Assembly (NCBI GenBank): GCA_020746835.1
Contig: JAGPNK010000003.1
Coordinates: 434,001 to 498,000 of the forward strand
Source: Stachybotrys elegans
Lineage: Eukaryota; Ascomycota; Sordariomycetes; Hypocreales; Stachybotryaceae
DNA length: 64,000 nt
Direction: 5' to 3'
Each line of letters starts with the position of its first letter. Position 1 is the stretch's first letter. Shown piece after piece: positions 30,911 to 53,090 of the stretch. The position numbers and the translations under genes were made by a program. Below the pieces are notes generated by a model. That model had not been told where the DNA came from, ran no database searches, and was given only the letters and a program-made list of their open reading frames with translations.

Positions 30911-32706
30911 TTACCATCTTCGCCTCCACCTCACAACCATATCCCGATCCGGCTGCAGCACGCCTATACCCGAGTACGCCATGTCGCTCTGGGCCGGTCG
31001 ATCGGAGCCCGAGCCGTCCAGAAGAGTCCACCTGACAAACTCCATGTCAAATCGGTCCACGAGGATCGCCATCATGGTGAAGATTTCGTTTCTGGCAAAA
31101 TGGCGTCCTGGACAAATTGGCACACCGCCGCCTATCCGGAGATGTTAGGTGTGTTCAGGAGAAATTTGGGAGGGGGCATGGAATCAAGAATTTCAGTTTT
31201 CAGTTGGCAACGTACCGAATGGGAAGAAGTGGCCTGGGTTGGCCGCCATCACGAATTCTCGTCTGACTTGGCCCTCTTCCTCTACGTACTTTATGTGACG
31301 CTCAGCCCAGAACTCATCAGCGGGGTGACTCGGCGAGCCCCAAATTGCCTCGTCCGTCTGGGAGAGATGCGTATACGCGTGAATCGTCGACCCCTCGTCG
31401 ATGTAAACGCCGCTGAGTGTCACAGGCTTTTCCACCACGCGCATAATCACCATGCTCATCCGCAGGCGCAGAACCTCGGTGAACGCGGATTGTAGCAGAG
31501 GGAGGCTTAGCACTTTCTGGTTGTCTAGTGAGCGCTTGCCTGTCGTTGCGTCAGTGGTGAATGCCGTCGCGACCTCTTCGCGGAGCGCCTTTAGTAGCTG
31601 GGGATCGTTGTTGATCTCCATGATAATCCATGCCACGACGGGGATCGTATTGGAGTTTTGCCTGGCATCCAGTCAGCTTACAGTTCATACTTCTTGTCAG
31701 AGAAATTCTCAGCCAAACAGCAACGTTCCCAGCGCGCCGGCAACAGTCTTGGGTCGAAACTTTGCATCCGAAAGCCACTTGACCAACTCGCGCGTGATGC
31801 GAGCTCCGAAATGAGGCTCCCAGTTCGCTTCAGCACCAGATGCCTGCCAGTCAAAATTCTCCATGCCATCCGCTATATACTTCTCAAAAGCGGCTAGATA
31901 GCGATCTGAAGCTTTGTACGGCGCGGGATACACCCACTCCGGGAACCCCCAGACTAATTTGGAGGCATGGTCGTCGTAGGTCCAGAATATATCCAGAAAA
32001 TCCTTATTCAGCGCGAAGAGCCTGGGCCCAAATAGCGTCGTGATGGCGCATTTTGTGAAGTCCCGCTTCGTGAGCTCGTTGACGCTGAGTGTCGTCCACT
32101 GCCCCTCTGGGAAGCTCTCCATGACGAGGGAAAACTGCCTGGCGAATTCCTCAACCACAGGCTGGAGCTGACTGTGGCGGCTCAAGTAGTCGTACAGAAC
32201 ATGGTACTTGGACGCCCAGTACCGCTCATTTCCCGGCATCAGGTCAGCGCTGCCCTTCAACCCCGTCTTGTCGTTGGCGAAGCGCTGGATCTCGTCATCC
32301 GACATCCGGTAGAGCTTGGGAAACCCAATCTGCAGCATGATGCCATTGTACGTGAGTTCGCGAGATGAGAAGATGGCTTGGTAGTTCTTCAGCCCAGTGA
32401 CTACGTATACACGGTTCCAACCAAGGTGGAATTTGACCACCGGGGCTCGCTGGAGAGCGGCTCTATCCAGAGCACAAGTCTTAGCAAGCACCCTTCTCAT
32501 AAGTATGTATAGTATTCGAGGACAAACCTGACGCGACTCATAAACTTGGCATTATTGAGTATGAACTGCAACGTGTTGAAGACTGTTGGTACTGGATCGC
32601 GAAGGTTTAGAGGCGCAACACCTCTCTGATTCCGGGGTCGTCCAGCAAGATAGACAACGATCGCTGGAATTAAGAGCGCTGCCAGAAGTACCAAAAAGTC
32701 TGTCAT
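30911..32706 (-). CDS. Cytochrome P450 monooxygenase
   Basis: Membrane-anchored heme-thiolate oxidase. Minus-strand exons: 32706-32528, 32462-31719, 31661-31216 and 31131-30911 (introns 65, 57, 84 nt), about 529 residues. N-terminal anchor MTDFLVLLAALLIPAIVVYL; an alternative Met at 32733 adds nine residues. Landmarks: FMSRVRAALQRAPVVKFHLG near residue 60, an I-helix region QNSNTIPVVAW instead of A-G-x-D/E-T, the E-x-x-R motif (TEVLRLR, Glu370/Arg373), and the heme loop FGGGVPICPGRHFA with Cys463. The position two before Cys is Pro, not Arg. The Asn-Ser-Asn-Thr I-helix and GGG-x-x-x-CPGRHFA loop resemble CYP7/CYP8-like fungal P450s. The substrate is unknown. Intron 1 was chosen because it restores the conserved block. 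It lies 5 kb from the UstYa/repeat-precursor pair, but membership of that locus is speculative. Confidence 0.9.
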
Positions 32707-33358: not shown

Positions 33359-36300
33359 CTAAGCGCGAAGCTTGACGAGGAACATGGTCATGGCAGCAAA
33401 GATGACGGGCAGTACGCTGACAATCTCACCGAGGCCGGCGTACGCGGGCGGGATGCGGAAGTTGACAAAGGCACCAGCCGCGAGGAGGATCGCCAGGACG
33501 TTGTAGACGCCCGACCAGACAAAGTTGAACACCATGCGGTGGAAAGCCACGCGGCTGACGTCGAGCAGGAAGGGGATACCACCGAGACCGGCCAGGAGGA
33601 CCACGTCGGCCGCACCACGCGTGATGTCGCTGGACGAGTACGAATTTCCGAGCTGTACACCTACATTGGCCTGAGCGACAGCGACGGCGTCGTTGGTACC
33701 ATCACCGCAGAACATGACGAACTTGTTCTCAGCCATGAGCGACGCGACGTATTCCCGCTTCTGCGCCGGAGTGCACTTGGCACGGACATTGTCGGGGAGT
33801 ATCCCGACGGAGTCGGCAGTGGATTTGACAGCGTCGACCTGGTCGCCAGAGACGAGGTGGATGGTGATGTTGCGGCTTTTAAGCTTAGCAATCACGGCAT
33901 TGGCTTCCGGACGCAGATTGGCGCGAAGACCAAAGAGGGCGATGGGAGTCGAGTTGCGAGTGACGAGCAGGACGGTCATGGAATCGGTGAGCAGGCGATG
34001 GACAGCAGGGTTGGCCTCATTCTGGGTCCAGCTGGGTGTTCCGGCTTGGAACAGAGAACCGGCCTTGGTCGCTTGAACACCGCAACCAGGGATAGCTTGA
34101 ACATCACCAATATCGGCCGCTTTGGCCACAGCCTGTTCAAGATGCTTGGCGACTGCTGCAGAAACGGGGTGATTGTTGCTCGAGACCAAAGCCTTGGTAA
34201 CAGCGATAGCTTCCTGGGGGGCAATGAAGTATTCTTCTGCAAGGACATCAAGGGTTCCCTCAGTTAGAGTGCCAGTCTTGTCGAGGACAACATCGGTAAC
34301 CTTGCGCGCTTCGGCTGTGCATTCCGCCGTCTTGATGACGACTCCTCCGCGCGCCGCGATGCCTCCGGCAATCACAAGCACCATGGGGACAGCCAGGCCA
34401 AGCGCACAGGGACAAGACACGGCGAGTACAGCGACGGCATAGGTGATGGCGTCAGGAACCGCTTCCCCAGCTCGCTCGTTTCTAACTCTAAGGCCAACAA
34501 TGACCCAGATGACGGTGGTAAGCACTGCGATTGTCGTTACCACGGGGACGAACCAACTGGCAACACGATCTGCGAGGTCTTGCATCTTGGGCTTGGAGCC
34601 AGCAGCCTCTTCGACGAGCTCTGCAATGTCTGTGACAGTATTTTTGCCCGGAAGGCGGGTAAGCGAGGCAGTAATGACGCCCGAGCCATTGACAGTGCCA
34701 GCGATGATCGGGTCGCCAGTCTTCTTGGTGACAGGCATACTCTCACCAGTCAGCATCGACTCATCGACCTCGCTGGAACCGCTGGTCACGACACCATCGG
34801 TGGGAATGCGGGTGTGTGGCTGAACCATGAACTTGTCGCCATACTGGAGCAAGCGGGCATCAATCTCGTACTCTTTCCCATCGTCAACAAGGGTGGCCGT
34901 GGACGCTTGAAGAGATCGCAGTGACACGGCGGCGACGGCTCGAATGCGAGCTACAGCAGCAATCAGGCGGCCCAGCAGGATCAGAGTAATGAGGAGAGTA
35001 CTGGTTTCGAAGAACTCGCTCGTCTCAAGCGGCTGGTTGGCCATACGGAAGCCAAATGCGACGAGGGAGTACAGGTAGGCGGCAGTGATGCTGATACAGA
35101 CAAGCATGTCCATCTCAATGCTACGGTCGTGGATCAGCGAGAGGATAGCGGGACGGTACAGAGTTGGGACGGCGACGAGCTGGACGAGGGTCGCAAGAAC
35201 CAGCGAGATGTAGGCGCGCGTTCTTCCGTCGACCAAATCCTCTCCCCACGCCAAGACACAGACGGGGATCGTAAGGACAGCAGAGACGCTGGTCTTGACG
35301 AGCAGGTCATAGAGCTTCTTCCGTCCAGATGCGACCGAGGGATCAGCAGCCGGAGGAGCAAGTCCATTAGCAAGACTGCCGATTTGATCGACAAGAGAGC
35401 GTGCGCCAATGATGGCGGGATCATAGGAGACTCGGATGACTTTCTTGTTGATAATGTTGACCTCGGTGATGCCAGGGATGGCGAGTTCAGTCAGCGCTTT
35501 GGCAGCGTCTCCCGTGGCAAGAAGGTCCAGCGACTGATCGTTGCCAGTAAGGCGAGTGCAGCTGAAGCCGGTGGCCTTTTCAGTCTCACGAATGAGATGG
35601 TCCGCTTTCTCGCCAGAGGGATCGAGACTGAACTCGGCTGTTCCTCTGACGAAATTGACGCGAACATTGGATACGCCCGGAGCAGCATTAAGGATACGCT
35701 CGAGCTTGCTGCCGCAGCCCGAGCATGTCATTCCAGCGACAATGAGAGCGACGTGTTCCAGACCGGCATCATTCTCGACGTCAATCTCCTTGTTCCTGAT
35801 GGTGACGGCCGCACGGCGCGACTTTTGACTCGGGTCGGCGGGATCATCGCAGCCGTCGCTACAGCAGGATCCCTGGTTGCTCTTGACGGGCTTGATGGCC
35901 AGATCGTCCTGCTGGGTCGAGACAGGAGCACGAGCCTTCTTACCGCGATGCTTCATGCCGCCCAGGGTTCGATGGTGGTGCTGGCCATGGTGCCCGGCGC
36001 CGCTCTGGTGCATGCTATGCGCGGTAGAGTGACCCGAGGTCCCAAACACGGCAGTATCGGCATCGACACGCGCAACCTTGGCTGCCTTGGGCTTGTCGGT
36101 CTTATCGCAGCACGAGGCGGGGAGGCCGCGGTCGAGGATGCTGCGGCAGATGCAGCGAGCCGTCTCGAGGTAGGCGCCGTACTGCTCGAATGCTTTGGTG
36201 AGGTGGGTGCTGCAGGCCGACGCAGGATGATGGCCGTTCTTATCGTGATCATGCTGGTGGCCAGTGGCATCTGGAGGACGGGGAGTTAGGCATGGCTGGG

Positions 36301-36911
36301 GGACGTGAAGTGGTTGAGCATGATGGCTTACCGTTGTGCGCAGCATCATCGTCGCACGTCTTTTCGCATTCCATGGCAGCAGCCGCAATGATGCACTTTT
36401 CTACACATTGGCGGTCAGTATCAACACCACGGGGGTCAGGGCCAATCGTACCGTCGCACTGCTCGTCCTTGGAGGTGCAGCACTCAAGCTTCACGTCGCG
36501 GGTGGAAGCGTCCGAGTCATCGTCGCAGCCGTCGCAGCAGCCGGGCTCGGCGTCACGTCCACCACCACAGCAATCGTCTTGCTCTGCCTTTCTCTCTGCC
36601 GGAGCACCGCCGCCGCCGCAGCAGCCGGCTTGGCAGTCGTCGGCGTCGGCATCGGCACAAGAGTCGGCGTCGGATTCGGATTCGGGCTGGGCGCCGCAAG
36701 TTCCACCGGAGCAGCAACCGTCGGCAGGCTTATCCTTGTTGTCTTTGATGGCAGCATCGTCGGCGCAGCAGCCGGCCTCGCAGTCGCTGCCACTAGCATC
36801 GGGTCCTGCCGGAGCGCAACAGCCATCGCCAGCACATCCGCCAACCTCGGCACGAGGCACCACAGGCGGCTTCTCATTGTCGGCGCCGCCGCCGCAGCAG
36901 TCTTTACCCAT
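33359..36911 (-). CDS. P1B-type heavy-metal ATPase with Cys-rich N terminus (Pca1-like)
   Basis: Exporter of copper or cadmium ions. Exons 36911-36332 and 36270-33359 (61-nt intron), 1,163 residues. Residues 1-193 form a metallothionein-like region with about 27 Cys, many as CC or CCGGG pairs. A His-rich linker and more Cys follow, then one HMA domain (GMTCSGCGSKLERIL, about 366-434). The pump core has TGES (701-704), the ion-binding CPC in SCPCALGLAVP (813-815), phosphorylated Asp in DKTGT (857-861), the NHP motif near 894, GDGTND and a C-terminal membrane pair. CPC defines group IB-1, and GDGTNDAVAVAQA with a Cys-rich leader is typical of yeast Pca1 and Aspergillus PcaA cadmium/copper pumps. 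The start MGKDCCGGG was chosen because it opens the Cys-rich region; frames upstream lack coding character. It lies between the P450 and the repeat-precursor gene, on the same strand. Confidence 0.93.
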
Positions 36912-37681
36912 GGCGAATGGGTGGTTAAGAAATGATTTTGTATTCGTACTTGGATGGTCAAAAGTCTGGGTTGTATGAGGGTTTGTGGGGGAAGGAAAAG
37001 GGAAGGAAAGAACGAACAGATTCGACCCCAGCAGTGGAATATTTCGGACCAACGACAGGGATTCACTACCAGCCCTCATGCATCCAGATACATACAAATA
37101 CAACCCGTCAGTACTCCGTTTAACGTGTAACGTGTAACACGGAGAGCTTGGAGCCCCCAACCACGGAAACGCTGAACTTGAGCGCCATGACACACGGCTG
37201 ATACCAAGCCTCGACATTCTATTGGCCTCCACCGTCCGAAGCGACAAGACGAAACAGCCTTTCAATCAGCCCCTTGCCGGTTAACTGCACCGTTTACATC
37301 CGTAATAATCACCGCGACGGGAAATACCACCGTTTATTAATGCCGGCTATAAAACCGTGATCAAGAGCCATAGATGGCATCGAGTGCCCGACGTCCAAAT
37401 ACTTGCAGTTTATTCATCTTCATCATTACACAACCCGTACTGCCTGCCAGTCAATCCATATAAACAACCAAACCAGCAGTCAGATGAATTAAAGGTTATC
37501 TACATTTTTCCCAGTTTCAACAGCGCTAGTATATGGGCCTCTCGCACCCGCGCGAAGCCACACCAAGGTCGACTTCCGACAGATTTCGTAGCTGGTCAAG
37601 CCAAACTTGTTCCCAAGTCGCATCCATCATTCACCACCTCCGTCCCATGCCCCCTTGACCGTGACGCCCTTCCAACTCGCT
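36912..37681. other. ATPase promoter region
   Basis: 770 bp between the repeat-protein stop and the ATPase start. CT-rich stretches sit just upstream of the ATPase ATG (minus strand). I see no defined metal-responsive element. Confidence 0.4.
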
Positions 37682-38341
37682 CTAGTACTCATCACCTTCC
37701 TCCTCACGCTTGTTGTTTCGGCCACGTCCGTTGCCCTTGGCACGACCGCCCTGGTGGTGGCGGGCCTCAAGCTCGACCTCCTCGCGCTTGTTGTTGCGTC
37801 CACGTCCGTTGCCCTTGGCACGGCCGCCCTGGTGGTGACGAGCCTCGAGCTCATTGTCGTGCTCCTCATCCTCTTCCTCGCGTTTGTTGTTGCGGCCACG
37901 GCCGTTGCCCTTGGCTCGGCCTCCCTGGTGGTGGCGAGCTTCCAGCTCGTTCTCGTGCTCCTCCTCATCCTCTTCCTCGCGCTTGTTGTTGCGTCCACGT
38001 CCATTGCCCTTGGCACGGCCGCCCTGGTGGTGGCGGGCCTCAAGCTCGTTCTCCTCGCGCTTGTTGTTGCGGCCGCGGCCGTTACCCTTGGCGCGACCTC
38101 CTTGGTGGTGGCGAGCGACGAGCTCCATCTCAAACTCGTCGTCGTCCTCATCGTCCTCAGCCTCAGGCTCCTCGTCACGCTTGTTGTTGCGTCCACGTCC
38201 ATTACCCTTGGCGCGGCCACCCTGGTGGTGACGGGCCTCGAGGCCTTCGCTCCTGACAGCAATGCTGACAGCCTCAACTTCCTCCTCGCGCTTCTGGTTA
38301 CGGCCCCGGCCGCCGCGGTTTCGTCCACCCTGGTGATGAGG
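37682..38341 (-). repeat. Seven-unit coding tandem repeat
   Basis: Unit lengths are 36, 40, 26, 33, 32, 26 and 26 codons. The basic 57-nt core is conserved at DNA and protein level, while spacers vary in length and sequence, implying selection or gene conversion on the core only. Confidence 0.9.
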
Positions 38342-38608
38342 CTGGCATCTGTTAGCTATGGTTCTATTCGTGTCTCACGGTGAACCAACCTCTCGCTCCT
38401 CAATGTTTTCGAACACCGGGAGGCCAAGTGCCGGCACCATCATAGCAGCCAGTGGCGCCTTTCCGAAATGTTAGCACATATACTCTGTGAATATCTTGGC
38501 AAGACTTACGCCATAGCGAGTGATGAGGTTGCCAGAAGGAGCAACGGCACTGGCAAGTCCCTGGGCGGCAAGGGCGCCGATGAGAAGAACAGAGGTGCTA
38601 GAACGCAT
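37682..38608 (-). CDS. Secreted Kex2-site tandem-repeat precursor (candidate RiPP/KEP precursor)
   Basis: Exons 38608-38510, 38458-38390 and 38341-37682 (introns 51 and 48 nt), 275 residues. Signal peptide MRSSTSVLLIGALAAQGLASA, then a short pro-region ending in EERE. The rest is seven tandem units starting at 38341, 38233, 38113, 38035, 37936, 37840 and 37762. Units 2-7 carry the identical 19-mer RHHQGGRAKGNGRGRNNKR; unit 1 is divergent (PHHQGGRNRGGRGRNQKR). Each 19-mer ends in Lys-Arg, a Kex2 site, and is followed by a variable acidic spacer (EE, EEEDEEEHENELEA and similar), usually ending in E-A before the next unit. The layout matches Kex2-processed repeat proteins (KEPs), which include ustiloxin-type RiPP precursors and pheromone precursors. 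Expected products are cationic His/Gly/Arg/Asn peptides neutralised by acidic spacers until secretion. There is no Tyr or Phe in the repeated 19-mer. It is divergent from a UstYa gene. Confidence 0.85.
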
Positions 38609-39959
38609 CTTGAAAGTTGGGATGGTTATTTATAAGAAAGAAAGAATAAAGTGTTAATGAGAGTGGAGTAAATTGAATTGGATCTACCAGAGAACCTAGA
38701 AAGGAATGAGATAGCGTCAAGCTATTGGTCTGAAGTGAAAATGGAAGTGAAGTGGCCAGATTATCGAAAGGTGAGCAGATTTGAGCGCTTTATACAGCAT
38801 AGATACGTCGGCGGCTCCGTGAATAGATCACTACAGATGGACTGTGGAGGCCTCATCCGCTATCTCGGTTCCCTCCCGCTCAAAGACAAGAGGGTGACAC
38901 GTATAGCGCGGTAGTGAAACTATAGAATGCCGTCATTTCGTCTCAAGATGCCGACCGACCGTTCAAGTGGAGGCATGGAAAGGCCCATATCGAGGCCAGC
39001 CACGGCCACCATTGTGATTAGACAAGCGACAATGGGTATAGTTTCAGCCAGAGACGACCAGAGGAGCCAGCAAAGTGCTTCCCTACCCAGTAAACTCCAC
39101 GTGGACCAAGGGCGTCCATCACAACCTCCCTGGGCCAGGGCCTTGTGAACAAAGCGGCCGCCACGAATCGTAGATCTCCGCCGCAATCAACTTCACACCA
39201 CTCTTGATGCCCATGTCTGGGAATTATCCCACGCCTACCGTCTGGTGATGTCGATGCTTGGCTCCTCGTCTCCGCTTTTCCCGATCTCTTGGTGCCAAGA
39301 AGCGACGAAATCGTGTCTGGGCACGAAACAGAACAATCTGCATGAAACGGTTCGTTCATCTATCTCCATCGATACGGCAACGACGGCACCTCTTCTCTGC
39401 TATTTCCCAAACAGGGGTCGCTGTCCTGGACTGGATCTTTGCCATCGTCAAAGCACATCCTGGGCCCTCTCTCTCTCTGTCTGATGTAGACTAGAGACCA
39501 AAAACCGTTAACTGCGGCTACTAACAAGCTTTGACTAGCACTGCAGCCCGCCCAATCCACCAGGCTTGGCTTTCTTTAGTTAATGTCCGTCTCTCCACTC
39601 GCCATGGGACCGCTGCTCCGCCAATAGAATTGAAGAGCTCTCCTTGGGGCTGCTATAATGGGAGTGTCGCGTTCCAAGTTTGTCTGACGATAGTTGCTTC
39701 ACTTTGGCGCTGAACACCCCTGGCGGGCCGTTGTCGCTTGTCGGCTGAACGTGCCGAGCTAGACAGTGCACTTCCCCCTTGAAGTCATCTCCAACAACGT
39801 CCATTAATTATTGTTTTCAACTCTGAGAGCCTTTCCAACCTTCCCACCTCCTTTCCTCTATGCGCTGGACGCTCCCTTCGTTAGTCTTTTCTTTCATCGC
39901 TAATATTACGCAAGCGTAATTTGTTATACTTCATTTCTTTCTGCAGCGCTTTTTTCATC
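38609..39959. promoter_or_regulatory. Divergent intergenic region, repeat precursor / UstYa
   Basis: 1,351 bp between the two divergent start codons. A TATAAA-like motif on the minus strand sits at 38629-38634 near the precursor start. Pyrimidine-rich sequence precedes the UstYa ATG. No transcription-factor site can be named. Short frames inside lack coding character. If the two genes are co-expressed, the control sequences are probably here. Confidence 0.45.
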
Positions 39960-40849
39960 ATGGAGAAAACCTACCAACTGGTTCCTGATGAGGAGAAACA
40001 GCCTCTCTGGAAGGGCCTTCGTCAATCCCCCATAAAGACAGTTCGCCTTGACCCGGAAAGCAGGCTGTGGAGAATCCTGGGTTTGGTTGTGCCTGTTTTG
40101 CTGTTCGTCACATCTCTGATTCTCTTTGCCGCTTCATATTGGCTAAGATATGGCCATCCGTCTGATCTATACTTTACGCGGCTTTATTCGCCTTACTGTA
40201 TGTCGCAGTCTGTATTTATGAATCATCTCACTGACCTCATATAGCTCCCGCTGAAGAGATCGTTGAATACACCACCGTGCGATACAATGTCACGCCCGAG
40301 TTGAAGAAGACGGAATACGTTGGCTATGGCCCCGAGGTTGACAAAGCCTGGGACCATATCACGTACGATGTGGGCGATCAAATGATCACTCCCAAAGCGC
40401 TGCATCGGCTTGGCCTCGATCCCAACTCCCTGCGCATCAAGGATCCCAGAACTGGTGAAGAGGGTTACAGGGTCGGCATACAAGTTTTTCACCAGCTGCA
40501 TTGCCTGAATCTTCTTCGTCAAGACAGTTACCGAGAGTATTACTCCCATCAAGGTGGAGATATCGAGGTAGAGCCCGAAGATCTTCGAGGACATCTTGGT
40601 AAGCCTCCTACCATACCACTGCAAGGAACATCAGAGAACTACATGGCTAACCCAGTCACAGATCATTGTCTCGAGATATTGCGCATCAGCCTCATGTGTC
40701 AAAGTGACATTGGCGTGTACGCATTCAAATATTACGAGGGATACGACGGCCATTGGCCTGACTTCAGCACTCTGCACACGTGCCGAAACTTTGATGCCAT
40801 CCGAGACTGGGCCTTTGAGAATGCAGTGGTATTTGGTGACGAAGAATAG
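39960..40849 (+). CDS. UstYa-family protein (DUF3328)
   Basis: Probable membrane-bound oxidase of the UstYa type. Exons 39960-40197, 40245-40598 and 40662-40849 (introns 47 and 63 nt), 259 residues. A cytosolic N terminus is followed by one membrane span (ILGLVVPVLLFVTSLILFAA, about 46-68). Conserved parts: VFHQLHCLNLLR with the H-x-x-H-C motif at 162-166, the second D-H-C-L-E-x-L-R-x-x-L-M-C block at 198-210, and LHTCRNFDAIRDW near the end. These two His/Cys motifs define the family. UstYa/UstYb in the ustiloxin pathway and homologues in asperipin, phomopsin, victorin and cyclochlorotine pathways oxidise or cyclise ribosomal or related peptides. Here the gene is divergent from a Kex2-site repeat precursor. 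The 63-nt intron keeps the frame open, but its removal restores the H-C block directly after GHL. Confidence 0.93.
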
Positions 40850-41458: not shown

Positions 41459-42478
41459 TTACGGGACACACTGTGAGTAGTACTCGTTGCTAACCTTGCA
41501 GGTTCCCTCAGCGCAACGAGTTGGTCCAGTCCAATCACGGCCACCGCACTGCCCCCAGAGAGGAGAGGTAGAACCGCCGCCGCCGCCGCCGCCGCCTCCT
41601 CCTCCCCCACCTCCACCTCCACCTCCACCTCCGCTGCCACCTCCAGTCCAGACAGTGTGTTTTCCAATGTTGGTGTAAGGGTAGGACCTGGCACCATAGA
41701 TGAAGAAGCGCAGGGCGGGATCATTGGAGTCGTAGAGACCGGGGATCTTGACCATAGGGCCGGGATTTCCGTTTCCGTTGCCGCTGACGCGGATCTGGGC
41801 GCACTCAAAGTAGAACTCAGTGTCACCGCTCTGGGCACCGTGGATCGCGATGTGCTCGACGCGGACGAGGTATTCTCCCGGCGGGGTGTCGTTAGGCAGG
41901 CGGAAGGAGACGGTAGACTGGTCCCAGGTGCACCAGTCGGTATCCTGCAGATAGCCATTGGCTACAAAATGATATTAGTTGAGAATTATCTTGCAGGTCG
42001 CTGGCTGACTTACATGGGGGGCGACAGATGATCATCTGATGGACCTTGAACCAGTCTCCATCACCGCGGTACTGGCGAACATCACCAGGGGCCTTGGACA
42101 TGTGGATAGTCAAACTGCTCACGGTCAGCAGAGATTTCAATAACCAGACTTGTATCCAGCACAGGGAGGCTATACGCACGGTCCAGGGTGCTGCATGGTA
42201 GCATAGTACCAGAGCTGGAAGCCAATCTCATCACCAGGCTTCACATCGTACACCTTAGTTCGGCCGGCATTGTTAAAAGAGCCAGAGTTGCAGCGGAAGT
42301 CATCACTTGGCTGCAGGAACTGCTTGGTGGGCATGATGCCATTGCTCTGCTCTCGGATGTACTCCCAGTCGTTGGTGAGTCGGCCATTGACCACAAGCTT
42401 ACTGAAGCGGTAGTGAGCCTGGGCGACCTGGGCGCCGGCGAGGCACCATAGAGCCAGTTTTCCAAAGTCAAGAAGCAT
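41459..42478 (-). CDS. AA9 lytic polysaccharide monooxygenase with CBM1
   Basis: Secreted copper enzyme that oxidatively cleaves cellulose or related glucans. Exons 42478-42180, 42114-42014 and 41961-41459 (introns 65 and 52 nt), 300 residues. The signal peptide ends ...AGAQVAQA, leaving His22 as the mature N terminus ([11 protein letters not shown]), the first copper ligand of the histidine brace; His97 (ATMQHPGP) is the likely second. Other AA9 blocks: [45 protein letters not shown] and [12 protein letters not shown]. The C terminus is a cellulose-binding CBM1 (about 264-300: [20 protein letters not shown], then YYSQCVP). The linker between them is almost pure glycine, about 25 residues, instead of the usual Ser/Thr/Pro linker. 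The gene appears intact. Confidence 0.95.
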
Positions 42479-45400
42479 CGTGGCGAGTGGACCTCAGATA
42501 TGATCTGGAAGGTAGCCCGGAGATTGTGGGTGGGTTGAGGAACTCAAGGAAAGATCAGCATCATATGAGCCAGACATCTCTGTCTTTTAAATAAGTTTCA
42601 GGACACCGCTCAACTATGTCTTCTAAATGCTTGGCATTGATTTCCGAGGCATTTCACCTGATTCAGAGCCATTTAATGAGGGGGTGGTAGAGTCAATCTT
42701 GGCAAAAGTGATCGTCGATAGTTCAGGTCCCGACCACGATCTCTCATTCATGGGTTTGCCTTGCCCTGACCGAATGCTACCTTCCAGATCAAAGGAGAAA
42801 AGACCCGTCGGGAACAATTAGGGAGAAAGACTAGACTGGTAGACCAACAATTCCCCGAAACAAGGTTGTTGTAAATTAAATTACCACGTCTTTTACGGAG
42901 AGCCTCGATCCGAAATGGAACCACCCTGTCCGTTTGCAGCGACATGACCATTCTCTGAGTGTCTAGAAATAGACGCAAGAGCTCATTTAGGGGTTTGTGG
43001 GCAGTATCTGCTTCCTATCGGGGCCTGTTGATAACATCCCAGTGGTTACTGGCTTCATTATACGAGGGGTCATCAAGGTTGTTGTGTGACATGCTGCCTC
43101 TAATAATGCCTCGTTGGCTTGTTTCTGCAGGGTGCCTCTTTGCCAAGGCTCTTGTTTGGAGGGGAAACTAATTGGGAACGGAACGTTTTAGTGTGCTACA
43201 ATGTTGCCGATGTCATTGGTTGCAGAGACAATTCTGTCAATTGTGTTAAGAATGAGGGACTATATCATATGTGACTGAGCTCGGCATAGCAGGGCGAAGT
43301 ATCGGTCTCTTTGATCGGTGTAGTATGCTATCGTTAGGGTTGCATTAAGAGATCATCATTCTCTGGTAGACGTAACGCCGGCTTTAGCCTGAGTGATATG
43401 GTCAGGTTTGAGACCAGGTTGTTATTGTTCACATGTTACTGTCACGCTGGCGGCAATGTAAGGACAATTTTCTTTACACCTTTCGATCAAAAACAGTACT
43501 TCAGTAAGCTAATCCGGTCCTTGGGCGCAACCCACCTACTAATATCATGAATCATCATCATGCAGCGTTGGGGTGGATAGTCTGTCATCCCCTGCCTGCC
43601 AAGATGGGATAAAGACCGCCGCCATGATGTTCTGGGGAGGCTTGTCTGTCAAAGTTTAGGCAATGATAGCTATGACAAGAATATAGCTCACTAATGATTA
43701 GAGACATGTTCCATGCATCGAATAGAATCCCACCCGGCGCAGTCCACGTGGGTGGTCAAAATACCATGCTTTGACAGCCGTGCTCAGTGCCTTTAGTTAC
43801 CTTTTTGTACCCTGATAAATAGAGTATGGTAACATGAACGGCCAATAAACATGTTGTTATCGCAATCAGTACCGTCCGTTTGTGGTCCGCCCAACGCCTC
43901 TCGTCGCAGTCTTGCACATCAATTGACTCGCAACATAAAAGCGAGCCCCTCGACCTCTAGACAAAAGGGCAATAATATCCCTCTTTACTACATCTAGAAC
44001 CGGACGCTCTATAAGCTTAACTAAAAAATATCACGCGCTGCATAGCCAAGACGGCAATATTCTAGAGCGTGTGGCAGTCATGGATTATGTTAACGGTGAT
44101 TGACTTGATAGATCCCGTCGGTTCTAATTTTGCCGACGCTAGCTCAAGTAGACGCCTCTATTTAGGGAAGAGAACAGACGCAATATGTGATCGTTGGTGG
44201 TGGATTTTCCATCAGGGCTCCGCGATTCCGCCCTCGTGATGGACGCAAGGGGTAGGTGAGTGGGCATGAGCTCTCCCTCGACACGCCGCCTGCATACCGA
44301 CGTACTCGACTAACTTGTATCCCTTTTGATGTCTACTGCGTGTCGTATTATTTGGTGTGGTGACACGAGTTTCTCCGGTGAGTTGGTGAATGCCAAGAGG
44401 AGTCAAGATTCTACATCAATCAACGTAAAAGAAACTCATCAATGTTTGTACCAGAGAAGTCCGATGACGCAATCCACCACTAACGTCTTTAATTAATTTA
44501 TTTTGTGCGCCTCGGCGTTTGTACAGGAGGTGGCAAGGAGACCATCTGCAGAACCAAGCTTCATGCTTGCACAGGAATGTTCTCTGGCTGATGATGAACC
44601 TCACAACGTCAGAGCATTCTAGCGCTCCTGGGCACGGCTCAATCTTGAGTTAGGCAAGTTTATCACATTCCTATTCACGAGGAGTGCGATGAGCAAGAAG
44701 GTCTATGAGAGCTGGAGAAAACGGGGGTTTGCAAAATATTCTCGTTTACATGACCTCATTGCTTTTCGCGTTCAATATCGAGTCACTCTTGTCAGAACTG
44801 TTTTCGACGAGTAAAAGAAGGATGAAATCACCACGGGAGGCCCCGAATGCTAAATCTAGACGGCAAATTCCTAAGGCCGAGTCAATATGCTCGCCGTGTT
44901 TGGGGCAAACACTCACGGTACAAGGCTATTCAGATGCCCTCTTTAGTCGCCAACGTCGACAATACCTCTTCCTCTTCTTCTTCTTCTCCTTCTTCTTCCT
45001 CTTTCTCTACCCCTCTCAAGATCAATGTCGGTTCCCGAAGAAAAGACCAGATGTCTGCCCACACATTACAGTCTAGTCCAACACGTCGGATCAAACGGGT
45101 CACTTCCGCATTGACTGTTTACCGGGAACGAGATAGTAAGCTTTTGTGACAGCAAAGTTTCGCCGAGTAGGCACCACTGCAGCATCATCATCCGCGCGTT
45201 CTAGGAAGCCGGGGCCAAATATAGTGCTGATAGCTATAGTCAGGCTGATGCCTCAGACTCCTTCTCTTCTAGTCATCCGTTCCCCTCATCCCGTACCGTG
45301 GCAAGCACAGATTGGCCGAAAGACCAGCGGCGGATGCTCTCTTGGCTTTGTTAGTCTCTGTATAGCTCTGCAGCAGATATAACCAAGACAGCATTATTAT

Positions 45401-46767: not shown

Positions 46768-49700
46768 ATGGCTCCCTCCATGCTTTCCATGACCCCTGCT
46801 CCTCATCAATTCCCCACGAGCCCTCCCACCCACTCCCGACGAACCTTCGCCTCCCACGATGAGGAGACCATGAGCAGCAGCACCATGCAGCGGCATTCGC
46901 GCCGCATGTCGCGTCGTTTCAGCTCCGTCGATACCTCCAACATCTCCGAGGTCGTCTTCTCGCTCAAGCGACGTAGCTCGGAGGAGCTGGGCTCCGCGAC
47001 GTCCGCCAAGCTCATGAACGTCACCCACGAGGGCATCCTGGACTGGATCCGATCCCAGCGAATGAGCCATGTGCCTCCCGAGGGAAGCAGCTACGACAAG
47101 GTTCTAGCCTGGGCCCAGCTCTTTATTGAGAGGCTCCATTCATTCGACCTGGCGATTGAGGATTTCGCCGGTGATTCATACCTGGCGACACAGCTCACTT
47201 ACGGTTACTGCTCTATTCTTCTCAATGTATGTACCACTCTCTCATAGTCCTATCAGGACCATACTAACACTCTACAGCTTGGAAGGGAAAATGCCGAGGC
47301 GCTCATGGTGTCATTTGGCTTCTTCTACAACATGTCCATGTCGCTTGCCAACCTGCTTGATCGAATTGAACTGTTTAGTGTTTCGCAGGACATCAGAGAG
47401 CAGCTGGTCATGGCTCTGTCTGACCTTGTTACGCTCGTCGCCAGTGTTTCTATCCGTTTCCACAAAGCTACGCGTGGTTTGACCAAGTCATCTGTGACGG
47501 TCGACATCTACAACAGCTTCCCCGGTGAGATCAAGAGCTTTGTCGAGCGCTGCGACAAGACGGCCGAGTCCATGTGGCGACACCAGTTGCTCAAGGATGG
47601 CATGGATGCCGTTCCAGGTAATGAAACACTCCTCCATTCACCCTGCGTCAGTGTTCTGACTGGTTCAAGTGTCTACGGTCAAGGCCATCAGGACTTGGCT
47701 TACTCCCGAGGACGCGGTTTCTGCCAGCATGGGCACCGTCTCGCATCTTGCCCATGATCGGGAAGAGCTGACCTGCCTCTGGATGGCGCCGTACCTGACG
47801 CGCTTCCTCAAGGGCTCAAACGACACTATGAGCATCTACGGCAAGCGAGGCTCTGGAAAGTCTGTGCTGGCATCCGTCATTGTAGATTACCTGCAGCACC
47901 CAATCGGTGGCAACACCTACAAGGCGATCTACGTGCCAATCAGTCAGTCCTAGCATCTCCTACTTCCGCTAGAACTACATGCTAACCGACGCAGATAACC
48001 GTGCACCTGCTCAGGGCGCCACCTCTGACATCTTGAAGGCCATTCTTTGCCAGCTGTTCCAGCAGCGCATTGGCAACGTTCAGCTGCTCCAGATCCTCTC
48101 CGAGGCCATGGAGCGCTGCGCAAGGACGACCAATGACTCCGAGTATGAAAAGGTCGTCTGGGTCGCGCTTGAGCGCTCTCTACAAGCAGCCCTTGTGGGC
48201 GCCAAGGAGCTCATTATTGTTGTTGACGGCCTCGACGAGGCAGTGTCCTCTGAGAGCGACCTTGTGCAAAGGCTTCACTCTGCAACCTCTCAGGGATCAA
48301 ACGTCAAGCTCATTGCCCTGGGTACCCAGAAGCCGTCCGTCACTAGTGGTGTGACGAACATCCAGATCACCGATGACCTGATCTTTGACGACATCATGGC
48401 CGTCGTTCGTGGTCTGTTCGAGCACGGCAGCAAGGTCTTCCGCTCTATGCACGAGATGGAGCGCGAGAGCATCGTCTCGCGCATCGTCGAGGCTTCGCAC
48501 GGGTCCTTCTTGTTCGCCAAGCTTGCTGCCAAGCGACTTCGAGACGAGGAGACATCCGACAAGCTTAGCAAGGAGCTTGATTCATTGAGCTCTCATACCA
48601 GCATCCTTGACTTTGTCACGAGGACAATCCAGGCCAACTCCGTCTCCGAGGATGCCAAGATGATGCTCCTCTGGCTGGCCACAGCTGAGCGTCCTCTTTC
48701 GCTCAAGACGCTCTTAACACTGACGTCGATTCATGTGGATAAGAAGACCATCAACGATCGACAGATCGATACGCTGTCGGTGCTGAGGCCTGTCAACTCC
48801 CTTGTGTTCCTGCAGGACGGTCAGGTGTGCCTTCGCCACGGACTCGTCCGCGAGGCCATTCTCGAGATGCAGCACAAGGGCAAGCTCGTGAGCCATGTCA
48901 AAGATCCCCATGCCGAGCTCGCCACAAGGCTGCTGTTTTACATCAAGCATAATGTCACCCAGGAGCATGACATCTCGCTCAACCCTCTGGATGCGTATGA
49001 GACACAGCAACTACTGAACAAGTTCCCGATGCTCGACTTTGCTGTTCGCTACTGGCCGTATCACCTCAGGCGAACCACTGTGTTCACCAAGGACGGTGAG
49101 GCGGCCGTTGCAAAGACAATCTCTCACGTTTTCCCGACGTCGAATACTGTCCTTCTCCTTCAGAATGCTCTCTGGGTGCACAAGGCAACGCCTACGCATC
49201 TCATCTACTTGGCTACTACTACCAACATCTGTCGTCACCTATTGACCAGCAACGACCCAATCACTCTCCAGTCCATCATTACGCTGGTGTTGCTGTGTCG
49301 CCAGGTTGGCCTGGTACAAGAGTGTATCCCCATGTTCTATGAGGCCACAAACACGGCCAACAGCATTCTCGGCTCGCGTAGCACTGTGACTCTGCAGATG
49401 GCGAGCGGCTTCTTGGAGTTGACATTCTCCATGACGACCAAGGAGAAAACCGACATCATGAAGAAACGTGAGGACCTCTTCCTGGTTCTTATCGAATGCT
49501 ACAAGGTCCAATATGGCCAGCGTTCAGAGATTGTCATCACCACGATGCATCAGCTTGTGGAGCATTACCACATGATCCACGAGGAGCACAAAGCCAAGGA
49601 GCTCCTCGTGACCATTGAGAAGATGACGAGCGTTCAGGGTAGCATCGAGGCTGAGAGCGGCCTCCATGTGCATCTCAGGCGAGGACATGAAAAGACGCAG

Positions 49701-52700
49701 ACCAGCATGCGACTCTTCTTGGACGTCGAGGAGCACGATGAGAAGCTCGAAACAGCAGAGACCCAACACAGCTTCGAGTACTTGTTCAAGCAGGCCGAGC
49801 GCTACGTCTCTGAGGGGCGGATGGAGCTCGCTGAGCACTCGTATATCGAGGCATGGCAGCGCATCAGCCGCGAGTACCGCCGCAATCACTCCGAGGTCCT
49901 GGAGAAGAAGAAGATGCAGGTCATCATTGGCTACTCCAAGTTCCTTCAGTCACAGAAGCGCTACGACGACTGCTCCTCGGTGCTGTGCAGCTTCTGGGAG
50001 GAGTACAGGCAGAGCAACGTAACGTTTAGCGAGACGTCCATGACGCATTTCACCGAGATGGCCAAGATCATGACAAGCATCGGCATGTACACTGGTGCCC
50101 TATCCATCCTCAAGCACTGCAAGTCGTGCTACCAGAATACCAGCCGTACTCAGACCAGCTCGTACAAGGAGATTCAGGAGGCCATTCATACCAACTCGCG
50201 CCAGATCATGCAGTCGGTCGAGTCTTCCGAGACTGTAGTCTCCGAGTCTACGCTGCGTGAGATGGTCCTCGAGGCGTCCAGCTCCATTGAGACCATGGAA
50301 GAGACTTCATTCACTGCCGCCTTTAGCATGGTGAAGTTGTACATGTCCCAGCACCGCTGGCAAGAAGCAACCCGTTCTCTCAAGAGAGTTTTGCAGGGCA
50401 TCTGGCCCTCCCTGTTCGCATCTACTGCCGCAGACGTCACGCCTCCATCCAAGCACGTCGACAGCTGCGTGGAACTCGCTGAGCGTCTCGCCGAGTGCTA
50501 CCGCGCGCGCCGCCGCATCACCAAGGAGGAAGACCTTCGCATGCGTCTGTACCACTGCATCAGGACGTGCAGGCCCGTCAACGATAGCCTCCGCGAGCGT
50601 GTGACCTCGGAGCTCATCTCCTTCTTGGACCGCACCCTGCAGACTGACACCATCATCACGGTCCGTCAGGAGATGCTGGATGACTACACTGAGTTCTACA
50701 GCCCCGAGCACCAGACCGTCATCAAGATGCTGTGGGAGCTGGCGGAGCTGGCGCGACCTCGCCCGGTCTTTGTCGAGTACTACCAGAGAATCATCAAGGC
50801 CCTCAACAAGAACTCTGAGACGTGCAAGCCCGAGACCTTTGAGCCTTGCATCACTGTCGCGACGGAGCTCTGGAACAAGGGTCACTTCTCAGAGGCTCTG
50901 CAGTACTACCGCATGCTCTTTGTCACGTTCCTCAAGCAGCCCAAGATGAACCAGAAGCTGCAGAACGAGACGTTCATCCGAGAGACTTTTGACCGCTACG
51001 AAACCTGTCTCCGAACCGTCCGGGCCGACTTTACCACCTTGCACAAGATCTCGACCGAGTGGTATCACCAGTGCAAGACGGTCTTTGGCGCCTCATCCAG
51101 CATCACGGTGCGCTCAACGCTCCATCTCGCCAGGGTCTGCCAGGAGTCCAAGCGCTATGAGCACGAGGCCATGGTGCTTTACGAGGAGCTCCTGCATGTC
51201 AACTCGGAGCTGGTGGACCGCCGCGAAATCACCTCCATCCTCGATGCCATGTATGAGGAGGAGGCCTACGCTGCCTCGTCCAACAAGTCGGAGACAATGT
51301 CCTCGGCACAGACGGAGCGGGCGCTCAAGGTTCTCACGAACCGCACCAACACGGTGCGCAAGAGCTACGGCTGGGCGCACGAGGAGTCGCTGTCCAAGCT
51401 GACGGAGCTGGTCAGGTTCCGCAGCAAGCAGAATGAGACGGAGATGGTCCAGCGCGAGCTCCGGGAGACGTCGATCCAGGTGCTCTCGACGGAGAAGTCG
51501 TCTATGCGCCTCATCCAGGCGGCGTCGACGATTGCGTCCAACTACATTGCAACCAACCAGGTCCATCTCGCTACACAGATGACGGAGGAAATGTACCGTC
51601 AGATTGTCATGAAGGACACGACCAACGTGAGGCAGTCTGGCTTCGACGTCTCCTCGCGAGGCCGCGAGAGCCTGGTCTTCCTCGCTCAGCTTGAGTACAG
51701 CCTCCGCCGCAACTCGGCCACGTCTGTGACGGTGGACGAGATCCTTGCGGAGCTGACGATGCAGTACGTCTACTTCCGGCAGTTTAGAGAGGCGATCCAG
51801 TCCAAGACGAGCTTCCAAGAGGTCACCCTGTCGGTTGCCCGCATCTACAAGTCGCTCGTCTCGACGCACCGTGAGACGGCAGCCAAGCACGTCTTTGAGG
51901 AGTACCACAACTACTTCATGAAGACGGAGGGTCGACGCCTGAAGTTCACCAAGACGGAGCAGATTGACATGCTTCTGCATACTCTGATGGACCACTTCAG
52001 CAACTTCAAGTCCCAGGACATTGTGCGATCGGTTGGTATCAGCGCCAACGCGCATATTCTCCAGCTGCTGCAGGATAAGAAGCACCATGCTGCGTGCGAC
52101 CTGGCCATGGCCAGCTTCATCTACATGTCCAATAGCAGCAGCTACCGCACGCCTACTATCGCCAAGCTTGTGCTGATCATGGGCATGAACATCTCTGGAC
52201 GTCACCTGTCGCCGCAGCCAGGAGGCGCGTGCCGCAAGGAGATGCTCGACACTTCTGGGGCTATTATCCCCAATGTCTTGCACGTGCTGGAGGAGCTGAA
52301 TGTCAGTCTCCAGGAGTTTAGCCTGTCACACCTCAACAGTCTTATTGCGCTGCTTGGGTCGCAGAAAAACTACAAGACGCTGTCGTGGCTTCTCAAGATT
52401 CTCTGGACCAGTCGCGAGACCAAGCTGAGCTGGCACCCATCGACTACCTTGGCGCTGGGCCGACGCTTCATCCTGGCGCAGTACAAGGTGGAGGACTCGA
52501 TGGCGGCTATTCGCCTGGCCGAGGACATTGTCTACAACTGCCGCCGAGTCCACGGAACGCGCCACCCCAACACGCTCGAGATGTCCATCCTGCTCACGCA
52601 GCTGTACACGAGCGTGGCGCAGCGCTTCCAGGAGTCGAAGACGGGCCAGGACATGGCAACGCGGCTCCTCAAGAAGAGCGTGGCCGTGCACGAGAACATT

Positions 52701-53090
52701 GTGCGCGTGCTGACGGACCCGGCGTACGCGGAGATGGAGGACAGCCTAGACACGGCGCACAGCAGCGACGGGTCGGACTGGGAGCATGCCATGTCCGACG
52801 ACTACAAGAACGGCGCGTCGGACGGCGAACACGTCCGCCAGCACATGTGGTATATGAAGCTCGCGCTGGAGCGCCTGGGCGGCTGGCCCAAGGACTACAG
52901 CGAGTACCAGCGGCTCAGCTCCGACGTGTTTAGCAAGTTCGCACAGGAGATGAAGGGCATGGAGGGGATGGATAAGTGGGATCTGAAGAAGTTTGGCAAG
53001 GGCAGGGCAGAGAGCGAGGATGATATGCTGAACGCAAACTTCAGCGACTGGGAAGTGGTTGATGTCAGGATGGGCCACGGACGACAGTAG
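46768..53090 (+). CDS. Very large NACHT-type STAND NTPase
   Basis: Putative signalling/immune-type NTPase, probably cytosolic. Exons 46768-47226, 47278-47617, 47670-47942 and 47995-53090 (introns 51-52 nt), 2,055 residues. Residues 1-90 are Ser/Arg-rich and disordered. About 100-265 is a helical domain (ILDWIRSQRMSHVPPEGSSY onwards) of the kind that precedes NACHT in fungal STAND proteins. The NTPase has Walker A GKRGSGKS (324-331) and Walker B LIIVVDGLDEA (about 430-440), followed by a winged-helix-like region. The remaining roughly 1,400 residues are long amphipathic helices suggestive of degenerate TPR/superstructure repeats (for example ERYVSEGRMELAEHSYIEAW, QYYRMLFVTFLKQPKMNQKL, then VTVDEILAELTMQYVYFRQF). 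No effector domain such as HET or PNP was recognised. The large last exon is free of introns and stops, so the gene appears functional. Confidence 0.88.

Follow-up and report, generated by a model that had tools for sequence, protein, structure and literature searches.

How could an enzyme of the UstYa/DUF3328 family act on the product of a neighbouring, apparently secreted repeat precursor, when the core of that precursor offers none of the residues that such enzymes are expected to cross-link? The question arises from two divergent genes of Stachybotrys elegans, a fungus described in a published abstract as a parasite of Rhizoctonia, and was addressed in the window, that is, the whole stretch of 64,000 nucleotides analysed here. 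The answer that we favour, with moderate confidence, is that the two genes form a RiPP-type locus in which the UstYa enzyme would oxidise or cross-link the tetrapeptide HHQG of a predicted secreted precursor, freed by Kex2-type and Ste13-type processing. A sequence-only reading of this DNA had presented the locus as a candidate new RiPP locus; it is less new than that, di-histidine KEPs (Kex2-processed repeat proteins) with a nearby DUF3328 gene being already described in passages of Umemura 2020 (PMC7329392). What is new here is the HHQG core, the cleavage rule that goes with it and the probable orthologous pairing of the two genes.

The precursor gene (37682..38608, minus strand) starts with an ATG at 38608 and has three exons (38608-38510, 38458-38390 and 38341-37682) which, once joined, give a spliced coding length of 828 nt and the exact 275-residue translation of the gene model. 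This model is based on the translation, on the homologues and on the mostly silent variation of the units. The least certain junction of the model is that of the second intron, whose donor (GTTGGT) is unusual. The protein opens with a hydrophobic N-terminus (MRSSTSVLLIGALAAQGLASA) that is signal-peptide-like as judged by eye, and continues with a partly conserved hydrophobic propeptide and, set in acidic spacers, the seven KR-ended units counted by the sequence-only reading. Unit 1 (HHQGGRNRGGRGRNQKR, 38288..38338), which is preceded after splicing by IEER-EP, is diverged, and the six others are identical 18-residue units (HHQGGRAKGNGRGRNNKR) located on the same minus strand at 38177..38230, 38057..38110, 37979..38032, 37880..37933, 37784..37837 and 37706..37759. 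With seven units ending in KR, the precursor falls within the repeat part of the definition of a KEP given in a passage of Umemura: at least three repeats of at least 8 residues between KR, KK, RK or RR sites, none exceeding 100 residues. For the signal peptide that the definition also includes, the hydrophobic N-terminus is a candidate. No second copy of the precursor was found elsewhere in the S. elegans genome. Since a protein search with the precursor gave no identical protein among the 7,990 best candidates scored, and since the neighbouring UstYa gene is annotated, the precursor gene may be unannotated in the database.

The repeat units look selected as protein, because most of their variation is silent. 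An alignment of all seven units is possible over 14 codons and contains 13 variable DNA columns, 11 of them silent and 2 not, and compared with a neutral silent fraction of 0.243 this has a probability of about 8e-6, if the columns are independent and neutral. Gene conversion can link columns, which are therefore perhaps not independent. The constraint sits in the unit itself, since the five codons upstream of units 2-7 are more weakly constrained (3 silent and 4 non-silent columns) and the acidic spacers differ in both length and sequence. Taken alone, the six identical units give 12 silent columns out of 12 (3e-8), a figure that was discarded as a test because these units had been picked for their identical protein. 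A chance repeat is ruled out by the mostly silent variation and by the existence of homologues.

The UstYa/DUF3328 gene (39960..40849, plus strand; exons 39960-40197, 40245-40598 and 40662-40849) is arranged head to head with the precursor gene, the sequence and the gene models leaving an intergenic region of 1,351 bp (38609..39959) between the two starts. Its 259-residue product is identical throughout to P0004, a database protein of S. elegans, and matches PF11807 with 187 bits against a cut-off of 25, over profile positions 6-220 of 220; the gene is intact and, as had been claimed, divergent. Both copper-type motifs are intact as well, HQLHC at 162-166 and HLDHC at 196-200. The H-x-x-H-C motif of the sequence-only reading is thereby confirmed, whereas its "D-H-C" understated the second motif, which is a full HLDHC. 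When 26 rows selected from the listed matches are aligned, H162 and H165 never vary, and conservation is 90% or more at C166, H196, H199 and C200; some of the exceptions are shortened records. In the AlphaFold2 model (mean pLDDT 71.6) the motifs stand on two long helices, 159-174 and 190-211, an arrangement also described for CctR (PMC12435403), and a further helix at 35-64 would be a membrane anchor. Among solved structures, the search for relatives gave two insignificant matches only, and because the fold search with the model gave 114 matches at E<=10 and none at E<=0.001, no fold is claimed for this enzyme. A 2025 paper shows, in the passages available, that a DUF3328 enzyme is a binuclear copper oxidase: CctR, of the same family, forms a dimer that depends on copper and O2 and holds two coppers by means of its two motifs (PMC12435403). 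The window's UstYa enzyme is probably a binuclear-copper oxidase like CctR.

The genes that surround the pair are candidate members only. They comprise a heavy-metal P-type ATPase with an HMA_PCA1 domain (33359..37265, minus strand; PF00122, PF24534, PF00403), an AA9 copper monooxygenase (LPMO) with CBM1 (41459..42493, minus strand; PF03443, PF00734) and a cytochrome P450 (31193..32551, minus strand). The Cys-rich ORF 36249-37265 that adjoins the ATPase has no Pfam match and would be its N-terminus. The P450, already noticed 5 kb from the precursor, matches PF00067 on ORF 31193-31672, and ORF 31709-32551 is without a Pfam match. A copper theme common to the neighbouring genes is a possibility. 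The reported absence of a tyrosinase and an S41 peptidase nearby also holds, as none of the 48 genome matches to PF00264 lies inside the 64-kb window and the single genome match scored for PF03572 is outside it. Searched by one fixed rule, Kex2-repeat ORFs occur in 7 of 18 UstYa stretches of 9.9 kb, the window's own included, and are absent from 51 kb taken elsewhere in the window, at a distance from the two genes. This enrichment near UstYa genes, which is only indicative, agrees with the peak of DUF3328 genes at the position adjoining KEP genes described in passages of Umemura 2020 (PMC7329392).

Is the pair found in other fungi? With the precursor alone as query, three homologues were found, in Pochonia (6.8e-20), Fusarium gaditjirri (1.0e-15) and Cytospora mali (8.4e-4). 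A profile built from four sequences, three of them trimmed, retrieved 16 proteins at E<=10; 12 of them attain 1e-3, and three of these 12 are profile seeds; the precursor search was word-limited, and precursors elsewhere may be unannotated. The UstYa protein search gave 224 matches, and the comparisons use the best 120 of them. In F. gaditjirri, the precursor FGADI_5762 and the UstYa protein FGADI_5763 have consecutive locus tags and the same contig size (176,295), and in Gaeumannomyces tritici the precursor GGTG_01713 and the UstYa protein GGTG_01712 are likewise consecutive. F. austroafricanum has its precursor at F53441_715 and its only listed UstYa protein (best 120 of 224) at F53441_13638, so that these two are not neighbours. 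Thus, of the four species with both genes among the matches listed, two have consecutive tags and one has not, and C. mali, which carries two differently tagged annotations, is not comparable. The linkage in relatives on which the sequence-only reading would have its pairing judged is therefore borne out, at the level of locus tags, in two species and fails for the one UstYa protein listed in F. austroafricanum.

The linked enzymes are probably orthologues of the window's UstYa, which in a one-way comparison among the 18 UstYa stretches of this genome scores far above the others with both FGADI_5763 (213 vs 69 bits) and GGTG_01712 (200 vs 73 bits). Stachybotrys and Fusarium belong to the Hypocreales and Gaeumannomyces to the Magnaporthales, and a species-specific oddity is ruled out by these homologues with consecutive tags. 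The FGADI_5763 record is without the stretch between both motifs, perhaps a skipped exon. Two observations weigh against the proposed locus: in many species with close UstYa relatives (best 120 of 224), no HHQG precursor was found by the word-limited search, and in F. austroafricanum, F. oxysporum and F. redolens the precursor retains no more than one or two HH cores.

The core itself emerges from the comparison of the precursors. HH was tabulated in 17 sequences, our own and the 16 matches, four of which are weaker than 1e-3; the match P0132 has no HH. Among the 49 HH cores, 42 read HHQG, and the two HHQV cores of P0136 are perhaps due to intron read-through. Directly before 48 of the 49 cores stands [LIVM]xxR or [LIVM]xxR-x-Pro, 30 sites ending in R and 18 in R-x-P, and the single core outside this pattern is in P0133. 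Outside the seeds of the profile, the pattern holds for 27 of 28 cores, a count that is not fully independent because the profile contained the motif. The P4 residue is aliphatic (L, I, V or M) at all 48 fitting sites, versus 37 of the 165 other arginines of the same proteins. Kex2-type cleavage suits a hydrophobic P4 with Arg at P1, and Ste13-type trimming suits an x-Pro dipeptide. The residue before Pro in the R-x-P sites is varied (13 E, 2 D, 1 Q, 1 K and 1 S), as expected of a dipeptidyl aminopeptidase site, and Ste13 signatures in KEPs are described in passages of Le Marquer 2019. In the genome, the Kex2-type P-domain is matched once and DPPIV_N four times. In the simplest reading of these sites, the N-terminus of the peptide would be His-His-Gln-Gly. 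At the other end, a Lys or Arg lies within two residues downstream in 35 of the 42 HHQG cores, and all four units of Gaeumannomyces are HHQG-KR, which would release HHQG itself. The conserved core is thus this tetrapeptide, with an N-terminus that would be set by [LIVM]xxR(xP), and the 19-mer ending in KR put forward by the sequence-only reading must be given up. Before unit 1, the propeptide is partly conserved in the four profile sequences (A34, A37, P42, L44, P47, E53 and R55) and is a candidate recognition sequence.

No Tyr, Phe or Trp occurs within 16 residues of HH in the 42 HHQG cores. The lack of Tyr and Phe already remarked on in the core is thereby extended, and a Tyr-ether cross-link of the HHQG core is ruled out. 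The RiPP-type pairing of a Kex2-repeat precursor with UstYa, in which the sequence-only reading saw the signature of dikaritin-type RiPPs, stands; the aromatic core of the dikaritins is absent. A recurring HHQG precursor requires a chemistry different from Tyr ether cross-linking, or another role for the enzyme.

The mechanism we propose combines these elements. The precursor would enter the secretory pathway, as its N-terminus suggests. The conservation of the sites points to a Kex2-type cut after [LIVM]xxR, to a Ste13-type removal of the x-Pro dipeptide, where present, that would expose an N-terminal His-His-Gln-Gly, and to the stripping of KR at the other end by Kex2 and Kex1. The target of UstYa, which would be anchored in the membrane, would be HHQG, the best conserved part of the precursor; the enzyme would either carry out a C-H oxidation there or form a cross-link in which histidine takes part, and its action would likely be copper-dependent. 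The basic Gly/Asn/Ala/Lys/Arg tail would be a freely evolving spacer or follower, and the final product might be as short as HHQG. The computed [M+H]+ of the linear peptides is 1715.866 for HHQGGRAKGNGRGRNN and 478.216 for HHQG; the core, its predicted N-terminus and these exact masses make the locus directly testable, and the cleavage rule helps others to find precursors that annotation may miss. It counts against this mechanism that the DUF3328 RiPP products discussed in the passages of Umemura cross-link through Tyr, which is absent here (PMC7329392). A further point against it is that enzymes with DUF3328 take part in non-ribosomal and polyketide biosynthesis too, according to passages of PMC12048977.

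Could the peptides be released unmodified, as cationic His-His peptides with a signal, antimicrobial or metal-binding role, the UstYa enzyme acting on another substrate? We hold this to be unlikely. In its favour, the core has no Y, F or W nearby for the known cross-link. The pairing of probable orthologues, seen at tag level in three genera and two orders, argues against it. The passages of Umemura 2020 (PMC7329392) supply arguments on both sides: linear KEP-derived peptides are described there, and the rates of di-histidine in KEPs are similar with and without a nearby DUF3328 gene (5.7% vs 3.9%), but in types G-3 and G-8 together, likened here to our precursor by description, 102 of 113 members lie no more than 15 genes away from a DUF3328 gene, and the mating-factor KEPs, which are linear, are with three exceptions without a nearby DUF3328 gene.

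That the precursor is an unprocessed secreted repeat protein, for instance a wall or matrix protein in which the KR and LEAR sites would be incidental, seems to us very improbable. Its basic and acidic low-complexity blocks would suit such a protein, but an aliphatic-x-x-Arg precedes 48 of the 49 HH cores despite their varying surroundings and length, and in the C. mali homologue, which has no KR between its main units and could be invoked in favour of this view, EAR-EP stands directly upstream of three of the five cores. It is hardly credible that a KEP should lie by accident next to a UstYa gene, common as these are in the genome (28 PF11807-matched fragments, about 23 genes after grouping). 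Chance pairing is unlikely because the homologues carry consecutive tags in two other genera, and with about five KEPs per ascomycete genome, as given in passages of PMC7329392, and an assumed 13,000 genes, about 0.02 chance adjacencies would be estimated per genome. The reading that we retain as the most likely is a two-gene RiPP-type locus whose enzyme would act on HHQG.

A bolder proposal, which we regard as improbable, is that the product is a fungal ribosomal copper-binding peptide, a histidine-oxidised or cross-linked HHQG that would hold, deliver or detoxify extracellular copper. The pair sits between the PCA1-type heavy-metal ATPase and the AA9 copper monooxygenase. If true, this proposal would make the product a chalkophore-like RiPP, arising from DUF3328 chemistry on a non-aromatic core. 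A precedent is offered by the noursin-type lanthipeptides, ribosomal peptides that must carry a His cross-link in order to bind copper, according to passages of PMC10206099; these are bacterial and made by lanthipeptide-synthetase chemistry, unlike what this fungal DUF3328 locus would employ.

Among known systems, the closest by description are the di-histidine KEP types G-3 and G-8 of Umemura 2020, in which secreted Kex2 repeats likewise carry an HH motif and, in the passages available, a DUF3328 gene lies no more than 15 genes away in 57 of 64 (G-3) and 45 of 49 (G-8) cases (PMC7329392). The genera given for them there do not include Stachybotrys, Pochonia, Fusarium, Cytospora or Gaeumannomyces, and the string HHQG is absent from the text of that paper. 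Among the listed UstYa relatives (best 120 of 224), 7 of 18 genera of G-8 and 8 of 20 of G-3 are represented, a weak evidence since type G-6 overlaps in 6 of 19, type G-10 giving 0 of 11. In the literature searched, from which subscription papers were mostly outside, no characterised di-histidine fungal RiPP product was found, and one may exist; none of the 13 papers listed with HHQG concerns fungal precursors, as judged by title, and the passages available from the Trichoderma, lichen and Venturia RiPP papers hold no HH core.

On the side of the enzyme, CctR and CctO, the DUF3328 proteins of cyclochlorotine biosynthesis, share with this UstYa a predicted membrane anchor and HxxHC(x)nHxxHC, and several of its relatives (best 120 of 224) bear the UniRef label "Cyclochlorotine biosynthesis protein O". 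The substrate of CctR, however, is a non-ribosomal cyclic peptide, whereas here a ribosomal precursor is encoded next door. The locus resembles the dikaritins, or ust-RiPS (ustiloxin, phomopsin, asperipin-2a), in which an ER-targeted multi-core Kex2 precursor is found with DUF3328 enzymes bearing HxxHC motifs; a multi-core precursor, which would be targeted to the ER, and such an enzyme are present here in one locus, and asperipin-2a also has one DUF3328 gene. It differs from them by a core and surroundings devoid of Tyr, Phe and Trp, by the Arg site [LIVM]xxR(xP) through which the core is entered, and by a window in which neither a tyrosinase nor an S41 peptidase is matched. The five-gene dikaritin definition includes a tyrosinase, an S41 peptidase and a methyltransferase, and the asperipin-2a cluster has no peptidase either, as stated in passages of PMC12048977. 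We do not file the locus as a dikaritin, because the aromatic core was looked for and is lacking and because the product is predicted; up to the modification step, it would work in a dikaritin-like manner.

The precursor/UstYa pair is flanked by a PCA1-type metal ATPase with its adjoining, very Cys-rich ORF (window 33359-37265, minus strand) and by an AA9 copper monooxygenase (window 41459-42493, minus strand), and a copper theme shared by the flanking ATPase and AA9 genes is possible, the alternative being coincidence. Further along, a plus-strand open frame of 1,705 aa (window 47973-53090) contains a nephrocystin-3-type fragment, matches TPR weakly and resembles a fungal NLR-like protein.

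In three Fusarium homologues of the precursor (P0124, P0125 and P0129), only one or two HH cores remain, mutated forms among them being HHRG, HHGG and HHEG, as if the HH array of these three proteins were in decay. The record of the Fusarium UstYa homologue P0041 (FGADI_5763) lacks, in the alignment, the stretch joining its two HxxHC motifs, perhaps through a gene-model error.

Elsewhere in the S. elegans genome, a Kex2-repeat ORF on contig C5 (L034, G000:C5:1208237-1208959, minus strand) is adjoined by two UstYa matches (PF11807 profile) and carries Tyr in its units, AYGRHTDDVS...KR; it looks like a candidate of the dikaritin type. Five other repeat ORFs lie close to UstYa genes (L038, L040, L041, L044 and L048, on contigs C34, C61, C23, C60 and C45, respectively), with units listed as RQYQLVVSQHGIEDG, DENLLDKKIGLSTDWIKR, EIDVADAFKR, DARVIYPDYRR and KRASVLPPLVDAG, and Tyr is absent from the units in three of the five. 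The C61 ORF (L040, 1749413-1749736) is separated by ~6.4 kb from a tyrosinase match (G000:C61:1756157-1756992), which brings this locus nearer to a classical dikaritin cluster.
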